In this document: positions 705 to 44,704 of the stretch, piece by piece
Position numbering within the stretch: the first letter of the stretch is position 1
Layout of the letters: the number at the start of each line of letters is the position of its first letter
Source of the DNA: Lachnospiraceae bacterium
GTDB lineage: Bacteria; Bacillota; Clostridia; Lachnospirales; Lachnospiraceae
Direction of reading: 5' to 3'
DNA length: 46,562 nt
NCBI GenBank assembly: GCA_022776305.1
Contig: JALFIB010000264.1
Location: forward strand, 1-46,562
Notes under the pieces: model-generated
Seen by the model: only the letters and a program-made list of their open reading frames with translations
Told to the model about the DNA's origin: nothing
Databases searched by the model: none
Made by a program: the position numbers and the translations under genes

Positions 705-1598
705 GCTTTCAGGGATCCTTGTCATTACAATATCTTCCACCAGTTCCCTCTCAAATAAGTCAAAACTCTTATTTACAATCCCCATCCGTATGGCCAGACG
801 AGGTGCAAGCCCGGCACGGACTGTCTTCAATCCGCCGATCATGCCCCGCAGGTCAAGAGGTTTCGTAGAGATCTCATTATTGTCCGCCTTTTTCTGTAGG
901 TCGAGGAAAACGCCACAGATCTGTTTCAGACCTTCCGGTTTAAAGTCTGGGAATAAGTCTGTCAATATCCGTGTCAATGTCTCTTCTGTAGGAGAAGGCA
1001 TTTCGATGACAAGGAAACGTGATACAAGAGCTTCATTTAATTCCCTTGTTCCTGCATATCCGTAATTCATCGTGCCGATAAATCTCGTTGCATCATTTAA
1101 TTCAATTTTTTCATATCCCGGCACATCCAGAATCCTTCTGTAATCCAAGGTGGCATGCAGCACGGAGACCGCATCATTTTTTGCCATATTGACCTCATCA
1201 AATATGCCGAAACCGCCCCCGACTGCGCAGTCATACACCGGCCCTGTCCGAAGCTGCACCTCGTTGTTGCGGAAGGTGTCCGTGCCGATCAGCGCACTGC
1301 TGTCCATATTTACATGGAAAGAAATATTCCAGGAAGGCCGGCCGAAAACGTAAGCCAGATTTTCTGCTAAGATATTTTTTCCTGTGGCCTTTGTGCCGGT
1401 CAGCAGGATGTTCTCACCCTGAAGCAAGGCCGCAGCTGCCATCTCAAAGGTTTCTTTCCCATAATAGGGCAGCATAGGTGTCTGGATCCTTTTTTTCAGT
1501 TTTTCTTCCACCGGATGGCTTTCTTTAAATTCCCTGATCGCACCAAGAAGGCCAGAGTCTACGCCCTGTTCCTTCAACGAATTCCATATTGCATTCAT
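675..1598 (-). CDS. MoxR-family AAA+ ATPase (AAA_5 type)
   Basis: A 307-residue AAA+ ATPase, probably a chaperone-like remodelling ATPase acting with a VWA-domain partner. A nucleotide loop GTKATGKN (around residue 70), a Walker B GIFDEVN (around 135), a sensor-1 region FIGTMNYGYAGT and an arginine-finger region NEALVSRFLVIEMPSP fit the MoxR/CobS group. The P-loop ends in Asn where Ser or Thr is usual; this may be a family feature. The start at 1598 is chosen because GGGAGAA lies at good spacing before it; a longer frame to 1643 has no such site. It lies downstream of coaBC and a 75-codon gene and upstream of the truncated partner. The substrate is unknown. Confidence 0.85.
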   Translation of the reverse strand: MNAIWNSLKEQGVDSGLLGAIREFKESHPVEEKLKKRIQTPMLPYYGKETFEMAAAALLQGENILLTGTKATGKNILAENLAYVFGRPSWNISFHVNMDSSALIGTDTFRNNEVQLRTGPVYDCAVGGGFGIFDEVNMAKNDAVSVLHATLDYRRILDVPGYEKIELNDATRFIGTMNYGYAGTRELNEALVSRFLVIEMPSPTEETLTRILTDLFPDFKPEGLKQICGVFLDLQKKADNNEISTKPLDLRGMIGGLKTVRAGLAPRLAIRMGIVNKSFDLFERELVEDIVMTRIPESWTPADVFDL

Positions 1599-13437: not shown

Positions 13438-13508
13438 CAGGGGTTGAGAGAATCGAACTCCCACTAAGAGTTTTGGAGACTCCTGTCATACCACTTGACC
13501 AAACCCCT
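13438..13508 (-). tRNA. trnW: tRNA-Trp (CCA)
   Basis: A 71-nt cloverleaf read on the minus strand: acceptor arms AGGGGTT and AACCCCT pair over seven bases, D stem GTCA/TGAC, anticodon stem GGAGT/ACTCT around the loop CTCCAAA, and T arm GGGAG-TTCGATT-CTCTC. The anticodon is CCA, reading UGG. The discriminator base is G, as required by tryptophanyl-tRNA synthetase. The 3' CCA is not encoded directly after it. Confidence 0.95.
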
Positions 13509-40308: not shown

Positions 40309-41310
40309 TTATGGTTCCATCCGTTTTCCGTTTGATGCCATCAATTCCACGAACCTGCCTGTCCCCACTGCGACTGCTGTCATCGGATCCTCAGCTGTCA
40401 TGGTATTGATACCGGTGCGCGCTTCAATCAGTTCCTCCAATCCACTGAGCAGCGCTCCGCCTCCCGTCAGTACGATTCCCCGATCCACTACATCCGCAGC
40501 AAGCTCCGGGGGGGTGCGCTCCAAAACACTATGGACTGCATCTACAATCTGACTTGTCACTTCTTTCAAAGCATCCCTCGTATCCTCTGAGGTAACGCGG
40601 ATCGTCTTTGGAAGCCCCGTCACAATATCTCTTCCTTTTACTTCCATCACCTTCGGCTCCGGTTTTTCAAACGCCGTACCAATAGTGATCTTAATCTCCT
40701 CTGCCGTCTGTTCTCCGATCATCAGGGCATACTTTTTGCGGACGTATTTTACAATGGCATCATCAAAATCATCACCAGCCACCTTGATGGAAGTACTGAC
40801 CACAATACCGTCAAGGGAGATCACAGCAACATCGCAAGTCCCTCCGCCTATGTCCACGATCATATTCCCACAGGGTCTTGAAATATCGATTCCGGACCCG
40901 ATCGCAGCTGCAATAGGCTCTTCAATAATATGGACTTCCCGGGCTCCTGCCTGATAAGTTGCATCCTCTACTGCTTTTTTCTCCACTTCCGTCACACTGC
41001 TGGGTACGCAGATGCTGACACGCGGTTTTCGAAAGGACATCTTACCGATTGCCTTCTGGATAAAATATTTCAGCATCTGTTCCGTTACCGTATAATCAGA
41101 AATAACCCCTTTTCTCATAGGCCGAACAGCAACGATATTTCCCGGTGTCCTTCCAAGCATCAAACGTGCTTCTTCTCCTATAGCTTTAATTTTATTTGTA
41201 TCCCTGTCATAGGCAACAACAGAAGGCTCCTTCAAAACAACGCCTTTTCCTCTGACATAGACTAATATACTGGCCGTGCCAAGATCAATTCCCACATCTG
41301 TAGCTGCCAT
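40309..41310 (-). CDS. mreB: Rod-shape determining protein MreB/Mbl
   Basis: A 333-residue bacterial actin that guides lateral wall synthesis. It has the phosphate-1 loop DVGIDLGTASILVYVRGKG, VDIGGGTCDVAVISLDG and IVLTGGGALLSGLEELI. AAAGGGG precedes the ATG at 41310 (a second ATG at 41316 is too near the site). The promoter at 41390-41418 gives a leader with a long hairpin. No mreC or mreD is next to it, which fits an Mbl-like or solo copy. Confidence 0.95.
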   Translation of the reverse strand: MAATDVGIDLGTASILVYVRGKGVVLKEPSVVAYDRDTNKIKAIGEEARLMLGRTPGNIVAVRPMRKGVISDYTVTEQMLKYFIQKAIGKMSFRKPRVSICVPSSVTEVEKKAVEDATYQAGAREVHIIEEPIAAAIGSGIDISRPCGNMIVDIGGGTCDVAVISLDGIVVSTSIKVAGDDFDDAIVKYVRKKYALMIGEQTAEEIKITIGTAFEKPEPKVMEVKGRDIVTGLPKTIRVTSEDTRDALKEVTSQIVDAVHSVLERTPPELAADVVDRGIVLTGGGALLSGLEELIEARTGINTMTAEDPMTAVAVGTGRFVELMASNGKRMEP

Positions 41311-41342
41311 TTTCATACCCCTTTCAATCTGATCTGCTCCAC

Positions 41343-41418: not shown

Positions 41419-41482
41419 TTCTTTTTGTACTCTAAATGATTTCTTAATTATTTTTCCTGTTTTTTTAGAAAGTAGACATATT

Positions 41483-41511
41483 TTGAACACATTTTTCTTT
41501 TATAGTATAAC
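41483..41511 (+). promoter_or_regulatory. Promoter of the intergenic small RNA
   Basis: TTGAAC (41483-41488) and TATAAC (41506-41511), spacer exactly 17 bp, on the plus strand where no protein gene follows. The start point is expected near 41517. Confidence 0.7.
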
Positions 41512-41516
41512 CATAT

Positions 41517-41684
41517 TAGCGAAGAGCTAATATATTTCATAACTCACACTTGGCAGCCCCCACACGCTGCCAAGTACTCCCTCAAACATTTACTTGTATG
41601 AATTTTTCATGCAGGCAAAACATTTTCAACCCAAATTTTTCTCTTTCCTGAAAAAGTCTGACTTCGGTCAGACTTTTTCTTTTG
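41517..41684 (+). ncRNA. Candidate small RNA between mreB and uvrA
   Basis: About 165 nt with its own promoter and terminator and no ORF of note. Structures in order: ATATTAGC/GCTAATAT (41513-41533, partly before the start point), ACTTGGCAGC/GCTGCCAAGT (41548-41575) with the C-rich loop CCCCACAC, a free segment ACTCCCTCAAAC, TGTATGAA/TTCATGCA (41595-41613), and the terminator AAAAAGTCTGAC-TTCG-GTCAGACTTTTT. Exposed CCCC and CUCCC runs can pair with ribosome sites, as in C-rich regulatory RNAs of Firmicutes. It does not match 6S, 4.5S, tmRNA or RNase P by inspection. Confidence 0.6.
41651..41684. terminator. Strong UUCG-capped terminator, usable from both sides
   Basis: A perfect 12-bp stem (41651-41662 and 41667-41678) closed by TTCG, with T-runs on the plus strand (TTTTTCTTTT) and TTTTT on the minus strand. 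It ends the small RNA on + and probably uvrA on -. Confidence 0.95.
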
Positions 41685-41760
41685 CTTTATTTTTCTTTCT
41701 TTATTTTTTCATTGCCCTATTATTGCGTGGTTTTATTTCTATATTGTCTTATTTGCGTTT

Positions 41761-41857
41761 GTAACTATTCAGAGCCACCTTACGAATAAGATAAGCATCT
41801 TCTTACATGCAAGCATGACGAATCTGCTTACTTATTCTAAGGGGTTCTGAATAGTTA
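41761..41857. repeat. Dispersed palindromic repeat, copy D, containing the uvrA stop
   Basis: Terminal arms GTAACTATTCAGAGCC (from 41761) and GGTTCTGAATAGTTA (41843-41857) are near-perfect inverted repeats, and inside them CCTTA-GAATAAG pairs with CTTATTC-TAAGG. The element's last bases TTA are the uvrA stop codon read on the minus strand. Confidence 0.8.
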
Positions 41858-44704
41858 TTTGCGTTTTAAATATTTTGCAACATACTGTCCCGTATAAGAT
41901 TTTTCATTTTCAGCCACCTCTTCCGGTGTCCCCGCAGCAATTACCGTACCTCCTCGGTCACCGCCTTCCGGGCCGATGTCAATAATATAATCCGCAGTTT
42001 TGATAACATCTAAGTTGTGTTCAATGACGATCACTGTATTTCCGCTGTCTGTCAGCCTGCGCAAAATATCTACCAGCTTGTGTACATCTGCAAAATGCAG
42101 TCCTGTAGTAGGTTCATCTAAAATATACACTGTCTTTCCCGTACTTCTTTTGCTCAGTTCTGCAGCAAGTTTGATTCTCTGGGCTTCCCCTCCGGAAAGA
42201 GTCGTAGAAGGCTGTCCCAATTTTAAATAGGAAAGCCCCACATCATACAGTGTCTCTATCTTCCGGTAAATAGACGGAAGATGCTCAAAGAATTTCAATG
42301 CTTCCTCTACCGTCATGTCAAGGACATCATAAATACTTTTCCCTTTGTATTTAACTTCCAAAGTTTCCCGATTATACCGCTTTCCGTGGCATACTTCACA
42401 CGGGACATACACATCCGGAAGGAAATGCATCTCTATTTTGATGATCCCATCTCCGCTGCAGGCTTCACACCGTCCGCCTTTTACGTTGAAACTGAATCTT
42501 CCTTTTTTATAGCCCCTTGCTTTTGCATCCGCAGTCGCGGCAAACAAGTCACGTATCTGGTCAAATACACCTGTGTACGTTGCCGGATTGGATCTCGGTG
42601 TCCGGCCTATGGGGGACTGGTCAATATTGATAACCTTATCCAGCTGTTCCTCTCCCAGTACATCCGTATGTTTTCCGGGAATGACACGGGCACGATTCAG
42701 ATCACGTGCCAGCCGCTTATACAGGATCTCATTGACAAGAGAACTTTTTCCGGAACCGGAGACCCCTGTTACACAGGTCATAACTCCCAGTGGAAATTTA
42801 ACATTGATTTTTTTCAAGTTATTCTCCTGTGCTCCCCGCACTTCCAACCATCCTGTGGGCTTCTTTCGTTGATCCGGAATGGGAATACTGATCCTTTTCC
42901 CAAGATACGCACCTGTTATGGATCTTTCACATGCAATAATATCTTGGGCTGTTCCCGCCGCCACGACTTCTCCGCCATGTTCTCCTGCTCCCGGACCGAT
43001 GTCCACAATATAATCAGCAGCAAACATAGTGTCCTCATCATGCTCTACTACAATTAAAGTATTTCCAAGATCTTTTAAGCTATTCAGTGTATTCAGCAGT
43101 TTGTCATTGTCCCTCTGGTGAAGGCCGATACTCGGTTCGTCTAAAATATATGCAACTCCTACAAGACCGGAGCCAATCTGTGTGGCCAGACGGATTCGCT
43201 GTGCTTCCCCACCTGAGAGGGTTCCGGCTGCTCTGGAAAGGCTCAGATACTCCAGACCCACATTCACAAGGAAACGTATCCTCGCCTTAATTTCTTTTAA
43301 GATATGGTGACCGATGAGCTCCTGTTGATGCGTCAATTCCATATGTTCCAGAAAACGCTGCAGCTCTCCGATAGACATAGAAGTAATTTCATAGATATTC
43401 TTATCGCAGACCGTAACTGCCAGAGCTGATTTCTTTAGTCTCTGTCCACCGCAAGCTTTACAGGGTGTGATCTGCATAAAGCTTTCATACTCCTGTTTCA
43501 TCGCATCGGATGATGTCTCTCTGTAGCGTCTCTCCATGTTTTTTATCAGCCCGTCAAAGGCAACATCATAAACTCCTTCCCCACGCTGCCCTCTATAATG
43601 AACCTTTACTTCCCGTCCATTCGTCCCATAGATGAGAATATCCTGTATCTCCTTCGGATAATCCTGAAAAGGAGTTGCAAGGTCAAAATGGTACTCCGCT
43701 GCAAGAGCATCAAGAATTGCCCTCGTAAAGCTTCCTTTATCCGTACATGACTGCCATCCGGTGGCAGCAATTGCCCCCTCCAAAATACTCAGGGACTTGT
43801 CCGGAATCATCAAATCTATGTCAAACTCCATCTTGTATCCTAAGCCAAAACAATCCGGGCACGCACCAAAGGGATTATTGAAAGAAAAACTTCTCGGTTC
43901 GATCTCGTCCACACTGATACCGCAGTCCGGACAGGAAAAGCTCTGGCTGAAGCTAAGCATAGTCTCTTGTCCCATCACTTCCACTAACGCCAAACCGCCT
44001 GCCAGCTGCATCACATTTTCCAGCGAATCCGTCAAACGTTTTTCAATCCCCGGCTTCACCACCAGACGGTCCACAACGATCTCGATATTATGCTTGATAT
44101 TCTTTTCCAGCTTGATCTCTTCACTGAGATCATACATATTTCCGTCAATACGTACCCTCACATAGCCGCTCCGTTTTGCCTGATCCAGAAGCTTCACATG
44201 TTCGCCTTTTCTGCCTCTGACTACCGGTGCCAAAAGCTGGATCTTCGTCTTTTCCGGCAGTCCCATGATCTGGTCCACGATCTGGTCCACACTCTGTTTT
44301 TTGATTTCCTTCCCACATTTTGGACAGTGTGGGATCCCGATTCTCGCATACAGCAATCGGAAATAATCATAGATCTCCGTCACGGTTCCCACAGTAGAAC
44401 GTGGATTCCTGTTTGTGGTCTTCTGATCAATGGAAATAGCAGGTGGAAGTCCTTCAATACTCTCCACATCCGGCTTTTCCATCTGACCCAAAAACATTCT
44501 GGCATAAGAAGACAAAGATTCCATATACCTTCTCTGTCCTTCTGCATAAATCGTATCAAAAGCAAGTGATGATTTTCCGGAGCCGGAAAGCCCTGTCAGT
44601 ACCACAAACTGATTTCTCGGAATATCAAGGCTGATGTTCTTTAAATTATGCTCATTCGCTCCTCGGATCCTTATATATTTTTTCTTGTCAATTGACGTTT
44701 CCAT
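41855..44704 (-). CDS. uvrA: Excinuclease ABC subunit A
   Basis: A 949-residue DNA damage sensor of nucleotide excision repair, an ABC ATPase dimer. Two ATPase halves with Walker [15 protein letters not shown] and [14 protein letters not shown], signatures [13 protein letters not shown] and [13 protein letters not shown], and zinc modules ([18 protein letters not shown]...[16 protein letters not shown]...[10 protein letters not shown]). AGAGG precedes the ATG. It is downstream of uvrB by 118 bp, the usual order in Firmicutes. Its stop codon lies in palindromic repeat copy D. Confidence 0.98.

Follow-up and report, generated by a model that had tools for sequence, protein, structure and literature searches.

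A conserved small RNA gene between mreB and uvrA of Lachnospiraceae with promoter boxes common to htrA genes

Two families of small regulatory RNA (sRNA) and one regulon are the closest described systems to the locus examined here. In the streptococcal csRNAs (RF02379), which belong to the CiaRH system, the CiaR repeat reads TTTAAG-N5-TTTAAG and CiaR controls htrA too, as stated in the accessible part of PMC8186281; several similar RNAs occur per genome, and their conserved parts are complementary to the ribosome-binding site and the AUG (accessible parts of PMC8186281 and PMC12826053). The LhrC RNAs of Listeria, as described in the available sections of PMC4132741 and PMC12826053, are multicopy and tied to the LisRK envelope-stress two-component system, itself linked to htrA, and they expose UCCC segments, binding of which to the Shine-Dalgarno region of lapB has been shown. 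No LisR consensus was known at the time of the 2014 LhrC paper, according to its available text (PMC4132741), so that the promoters of LhrC and of the Lachnospiraceae sRNA are not comparable. For Bacillus subtilis, the canonical CssR box is given as TTTTCACA in the accessible part of PMC6749698.

The DNA analysed here, called the window, is a contig of 46,562 nucleotides from a Lachnospiraceae bacterium. From its letters a first-pass annotation had proposed an undescribed plus-strand small RNA within 41483-41684, in the intergenic region between the minus-strand genes mreB and uvrA (Table 1), and this is borne out by the fold of the region, its conserved position and orientation, and compensatory changes in its pairing. 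The predicted transcript folds at −54.5 kcal/mol into four hairpins, none of 200 shuffled sequences reaching so low a value, and the opposite strand of the region gives a z of −5.15. Open reading frames of at least 20 aa in the region are 20-56 aa in length, and a 30-aa minus-strand frame was dismissed on the reading by eye of one relative (L009), where it stops early. At gathering score, Rfam 15 yields a sole match in the whole window, a tRNA at 13438-13508, and none at the sRNA locus; no family was matched in 15 related loci either, and the matches below threshold fall largely on the 3' half and the terminator. The csRNA model RF02379 scores 20.5 bits against a gathering score of 57 (E 1.3), over 41590-41679 only. 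Literature text searches returned no description of this sRNA among the best matches listed, with supplementary catalogues such as that of PMC8040213, available in part, perhaps holding an unnamed motif, and no regulatory sRNA of this kind from Lachnospiraceae was described among the matches listed. The word undescribed thus holds at the scope of Rfam and these searches. A mobile-element origin was rejected, since searches of plasmids, phages and viral contigs gave no match to the sRNA. These comparisons support a predicted plus-strand regulatory RNA with exposed C-rich segments outside Rfam, one that, judged by sequence, belongs neither to the csRNA nor to the LhrC family.

Table 1. Features of the sRNA locus and its flanks (window coordinates)
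Feature	Position	Strand	Remarks
mreB	40309-41316	-	PF06723 domain match; one flank of the sRNA unit
Direct repeats GACATA (41475-41480) and AACACA (41486-41491)	41475-41491	+	11-bp spacing; predicted OmpR-family (CssR-like) activator sites
Predicted -10 element TATAGT	41501-41506	+	many relatives, and htrA promoters, have TATACT
Predicted sRNA transcript	41513-41686	+	about 174 nt, ends predicted; fold z -9.34; in 42 of 46 same-genus genomes
Hairpin 1 (AUAUUAGC / GCUAAUAU)	41513-41533	+	5' end, first 21 nt; from fold
Box A, UUUCAUAACUCAC	41535-41547	+	unpaired; all 40 complete same-genus loci have it intact
Hairpin 2	41548-41575	+	10 bp, loop CCCCACAC (41558-41565); covariation in 10 of 10 pairs
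Box B, ACUCCCUC	41576-41583	+	unpaired; anti-Shine-Dalgarno-like; all 40 complete same-genus loci have it intact
Hairpin 3	41593-41615	+	variable; from fold; contains the 41595-41613 stem of the first-pass annotation; absent in some relatives
Box C, UUUUUCUCUUUCC	41636-41648	+	U/C-rich; 5' of terminator; CTCTTTC conserved
Intrinsic terminator	41650-41690	+	13-bp stem, UUCG loop, T-rich tail; stem-loop 41650-41679
uvrA	41855-44704	-	UvrA domains; other flank of the sRNA unit

The sample of relatives comprised 46 same-genus genomes besides the window's own. In a BLAST survey of 98 genomes, strong matches to the sRNA were confined to this genus. Three of the 46 genomes (G008, G034, G044) gave no match and a fourth (G027) holds a dispersed copy only. 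At each of the 42 loci of the mreB-uvrA type, mreB and/or uvrA was present (34 with both, 6 with uvrA only, 2 with mreB only); two of the 42 are cut by contig ends. A pattern scan with both exact boxes over a collection of 84,980 species returned 92 stretches, with Lachnospiraceae and other clostridial records among the 80 titles listed, including Robinsoniella, Hominisplanchenecus, Murimonas, Marvinbryantia, Parablautia, Choladousia and Limivivens; one of the other records (L175) was dropped as an apparent chance match. Invariance of the boxes among these loci is built into the search pattern. Of the 76 non-dispersed matches, 62 have mreB or uvrA no more than 1.5 kb away, and their orientation is always the same. 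A covariance model built from 36 sequences, run with search filters that lose weak matches, found members in 13 of 392 genomes of the order, all 13 in the same family. These divergent members retain TTTCATAACTC (L248, L249, L251, L252, L254) or TTTCATACTC (L250, L253) together with a C-rich box B, which is CTCCC or a run of C; the box A core UUUCAUAACUC is kept in L248, L251, L252 and L254 and appears as UUUCAUACUC in L250 and L253. Three of them adjoin mreB (L248, L250, L253) and one adjoins uvrA (L254), and in the fetched 3 kb around L249, L251 and L252 neither gene was found. Comparison thus shows a structured RNA gene on the plus strand that has a predicted promoter and terminator of its own and is conserved in its place between mreB and uvrA across Lachnospiraceae.

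Between the sRNA and uvrA, the window also holds an inverted repeat (41762-41857) with 15-nt arms 66 nt apart (TAACTATTCAGAGCC / GGTTCTGAATAGTTA). Six arm-like matches occur in the window, two of them its own arms, against 1.2 expected, and the element is possibly a dispersed palindromic repeat.

The conserved core of the RNA consists of hairpin 2 with an unpaired segment on either side, boxes A and B. The complement of box A is GUGAGUUAUGAAA, which spans a start codon. An unpaired CUCCC linker, which the first-pass annotation had picked out, is kept in every one of the 40 complete same-genus loci. In an alignment of 36 rows, all holding both exact boxes and with the stem left free to vary, hairpin 2 shows changes on both sides at all ten pairs, with 98.3% of cells paired; none of 500 shuffles scores as high, and displacing the partner by 1-3 columns destroys the signal. 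Of the two stems named in that annotation, this one is conserved and covaries, and the other, at 41595-41613, is variable, hairpin 3 being missing in L037, L070, L075, L076 and L078-L080. The C-rich loop CCCCACAC, likewise singled out earlier, does lie in hairpin 2; it is less constant than the linker, being missing in the distant members L118, L123, L155 and L168 and in L073 and L074 of the same genus. Hairpin 1 occurs in relatives as paired variants, for example GTATCAAC/GTTGATAT and GTGTTAAC/GTTAACGC. Box B is present in 41 same-genus loci, and in all 41 the motif CTCTTTC of box C lies no more than 110 nt from it; among mreB-uvrA-type sequences from all genera, 65 of 71 contain the motif. 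The TTCG-capped terminator was read correctly at the outset: a 13-bp stem followed by a T-run. Hairpin 1, box A, box C and the 11-bp repeats of the promoter are additions to that first account.

The promoter had initially been read as TTGAAC-17-TATAAC. These letters are present at 41483-41488 and 41506-41511 with a 17-nt spacer, and TATAGT at 41501-41506 is the better-supported −10 element. Of 69 relatives that can be aligned, 66 have a TANNNT motif where TATAGT stands (offset −12 in 49 and −13 in 17; 31 also fit the overlapping −10), and the letters of this motif, the variable fifth column aside, are 71-78% conserved, versus 58-75% for the first five letters of TATAAC; a promoter scan did not include TTGAAC-17-TATAAC among its listed promoters. 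Direct repeats of the form nnCAYA, spaced by 11 bp, recur in the sRNA promoters across genera and end shortly 5' of TATA(C/G)T, with four such repeats counted by eye in the distant member L118. Repeats arranged in this way 5' of the −10 element are the layout of promoters that an OmpR-family regulator activates, and many OmpR-family proteins bind 11-bp direct repeats. Phosphate control through PhoP and the PHO box, suggested by the 11-bp repeats, was rejected: the pst promoters of eight same-genus loci, read by eye, carry TTTAC repeats, and the weight matrix of the sRNA promoters (described below) found no promoter-like match in these loci, its one score above 12 among the pst loci being 12.6 (L197). 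In one pst region of the window's genome (L191, G000:C45), an open reading frame at 985-1839 encodes a PstS-like phosphate-binding protein that matches TIGR02136 in swapped order (model positions 163-294 before 39-158) and is followed by a pstC-like gene. The protein is apparently circularly permuted, as judged from its sequence, and the swapped order is also seen in other genomes surveyed.

The TTTTCACA box of CssR, the secretion-stress regulator of Bacillus, prompted a look at htrA genes. Matches to htrA were found in 25 of 25 genomes, none above the family's own cut-off, and all three proteins tested carry trypsin-like and PDZ domains. From 58 places listed, 30 loci were fetched, of which 28 genes had enough upstream DNA. 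A weight matrix was built from 89 sRNA-promoter sites, some of them shifted by one repeat (lowest self-scores 0.6-8). At a cut-off of at least 10, the matrix matched 22 of 28 htrA upstream regions and 1 of 123 control genes (Fisher p ~5e-20), leaving 6 of the 28 below it; at 8 or more, the counts were 23 of 28 and 3 of 123. The htrA boxes are accompanied by a TATACT-like −10 at similar spacing. Among 548 gene upstream regions of one genome (G025), 10 score at least 10.

A stricter box pattern missed the htrA promoters because the htrA repeats are looser. In the 46 same-genus genomes it matched 20 places: 17 sRNA promoters, one cut copy (G035:C83, where an sRNA copy ends after hairpin 1 near the contig end) and two others, namely L211 in the window's genome and G019:C8, the latter without uvrC. 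In L211 (G000:C246, about 1300-1530, minus strand), promoter repeats and a TATACT diverge from the start of uvrC into a stretch of about 200 nt that includes UUUUUCUCUCUUUC, which is box C-like; this stretch is possibly a second sRNA of an sRNA/htrA regulon. Elsewhere, 11-bp CACA repeats lie about 147 bp upstream of an open reading frame for a secreted protein (L439, G025:C11), a candidate further member of such a regulon.

Promoter boxes common to the sRNA and the htrA genes are thus what comparison of their sequences shows, and they point strongly to activation of the sRNA promoter by the putative OmpR-family regulator of the htrA genes of these bacteria, which would be CssR-like. Because its regulator would be shared with htrA, we infer that the sRNA is made under secretion or envelope stress. 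A trans-acting sRNA could instead answer to a different regulator of the OmpR family, one that recognises a similar 11-bp repeat and has nothing to do with secretion stress; many proteins of that family bind such repeats, and the 22 passing htrA boxes score 10-21, below the median of 25 for the sRNA training sites. The 22 of 28 htrA regions that pass, set against 1 of 123 controls, and the similar −10 spacing speak against such a regulator, as does the poor fit of the phosphate alternative, and we regard it as unlikely.

The window's genome carries a single copy of the sRNA. Tandem copies occur in several relatives (L070, L101, L108, L109, L163), and some relatives also hold dispersed copies, which have a different 5' hairpin but the promoter repeats in common, as well as both boxes (A and B) and hairpin 2. 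Dispersed copies sit between various genes, the nearest mechanically called open reading frame being on the minus strand upstream in 18 of 20 cases and downstream in 18 of 23, and an intrinsic terminator was found in 1 of 21. Three of them (L063, L064, L067) have, in place of the 5' half, a GC-rich palindromic repeat that includes GCGTCTGCGA and gives way abruptly to the sRNA sequence where hairpin 2 begins at its foot. In L123, L155 and L250, a single region contains two occurrences of the box A-hairpin-box B module or of a near variant. This recurrence suggests that the module may be a repeatable functional unit.

Activation in the manner of htrA (CssR-like) of a trans-acting sRNA of about 170 nt that blocks translation starts is the best explanation of these features, and in our judgement a probable one. 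The OmpR-family regulator of htrA would activate the sRNA promoter under secretion or envelope stress; box B would pair with the Shine-Dalgarno sequence of a target mRNA and box A across an AUGAAA start codon, with hairpin 2 at the junction, and the paired boxes would repress the start of translation. Base-pairing with mRNAs at their translation starts, and thereby the masking of ribosome sites, is the predicted mechanism that we favour. Exported proteins commonly start with AUGAAA, so that, speculatively, the overall outcome might be lower synthesis of secreted proteins.

Searches for targets gave mixed results. In G025, box A is complementary over at least 8 nt to 25 of 548 translation starts, whereas shuffled boxes give 5.2 +/- 4.9 (one in 200 reaching 25) and windows within genes give 4 of 548, and complements of at least 6 nt cluster at the ATG; this enrichment is partly automatic, because start windows hold ATG and box A holds CAT. 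For boxes B and C, start-site enrichment over the same 548 starts did not rise above shuffles. Exact complements of box A were rejected as a sign of targets: of 38 places in 25 of 41 genomes, 33 are the sRNA's own copies. An mRNA complementary to both boxes joined, with up to three mismatches, was found once in 19 same-genus genomes and once in 12 others, none recurring. A Shine-Dalgarno sequence followed by GTTATGAAA was matched 95 times across 38 of 46 genomes, with 15 of the matches being copies of the sRNA itself, and many of the 66 distinct sites examined belong to secreted or membrane proteins. With AGTTATGAAA in its place, the pattern matched 76 places in 33 of 46 genomes and its control 83 in 39 of 46; among the 39 and 30 sites examined, hydrophobic N-termini were counted in 15 of 30 and 13 of 23, so that by this measure secreted-protein targeting is no better than in the control. 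The start site of lysA recurs in four loci of the target-pattern sites (L331, L335, L336, L338). Pattern searches of same-genus and other genomes found no conserved mRNA target.

A more specific form of the pairing scheme is a split 'start-site clamp', in which box B would sit on the Shine-Dalgarno sequence and box A on the AUGAAA of one and the same mRNA, hairpin 2 standing at a three-way junction, so that many exported-protein mRNAs would be damped Lachnospiraceae-wide. We offer this form tentatively, as doubtful. Another reading treats the module of boxes A and B with hairpin 2 as a sponge or protein-binding RNA, in which the invariant single strands on either side of the hairpin would be recognised by an RNA-binding protein and the output would be titration of that protein. 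It accords with the conservation of the module as a unit, with its doubling in single regions, with its presence in dispersed copies that have different flanks, and with the outcome of the pattern searches for a conserved mRNA partner; we know of no RNA-binding protein that is a candidate for the module. Against such a sponge stand the partly automatic enrichment of box A complements at start codons and the C-rich type of box B, for which binding to mRNA was demonstrated in LhrC, as given in the available text of PMC4132741, and the reading seems to us improbable.

Terminator-like structures are found in 64 of 71 mreB-uvrA-type sequences on the plus strand and, owing to the symmetry of the stems, in 52 of 71 read on the minus strand. 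Among 48 unique cores, 17 G-U pairs were counted versus 6 A.C pairs (13 versus 2 excluding the loop-closing pair), an excess that favours the plus strand as the RNA. A cis-only leader, attenuator or antisense device for mreB or uvrA, on either strand, would account for the place kept beside these genes over genera and for the terminator stems readable on both strands, but it is very unlikely, given that both genes lie on the minus strand while wobble pairs and folding favour the plus strand, that dispersed copies lie near other genes and that three divergent members had neither gene within the 3 kb fetched.

The trans-acting sRNA, our preferred reading, resembles the csRNAs in its 11-bp-spaced repeats, which recur at htrA promoters, and in its segments complementary to the ribosome-binding site and AUG, as far as the accessible text on csRNAs goes; in its predicted targets, boxes A and B would cover the start codon and the Shine-Dalgarno sequence as csRNA segments do. 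The csRNAs differ in their bacteria and in their repeat, TTTAAG-N5-TTTAAG rather than nnCAYA (GACATA-N5-AACACA), and the box A-hairpin-box B module is a feature of the Lachnospiraceae sRNA. With LhrC1-5 it has in common exposed C-rich segments and, as its promoter boxes suggest, a possible tie to htrA; unlike LhrC it matches no Rfam family at gathering score. LhrC has several copies per genome; the Lachnospiraceae sRNA has one copy in the window's genome and tandem or dispersed copies in some relatives only. The CssRS regulon of Bacillus subtilis, in its accessible description, is alike in having htrA-type proteases as targets, and TTTTCACA resembles the TTCACA/CACA repeats of the sRNA and htrA promoters; no sRNA member of that regulon appears in the available part of PMC9386232 or among the literature matches listed. 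The best reading by analogy is that of a CssR-like secretion-stress RNA, which may work like csRNAs and LhrC without being related to them in sequence.

Lachnospiraceae are a major gut family, and in them the sRNA probably adjusts protein production under envelope stress. Sharing its promoter boxes with htrA, it would be a third pairing of an htrA regulator with a C-rich sRNA, beside CiaRH with the csRNAs and LisRK with LhrC, all with unrelated sequences. Such a third case suggests that Gram-positive bacteria have repeatedly invented a protease-plus-sRNA answer to envelope stress, an idea directly testable in cultured gut isolates. Should the split clamp prove true, one sRNA could damp many exported-protein mRNAs at once, and Gram-positive gut bacteria would have in it a counterpart, reached by convergence, to the envelope-stress sRNAs of enterobacteria.
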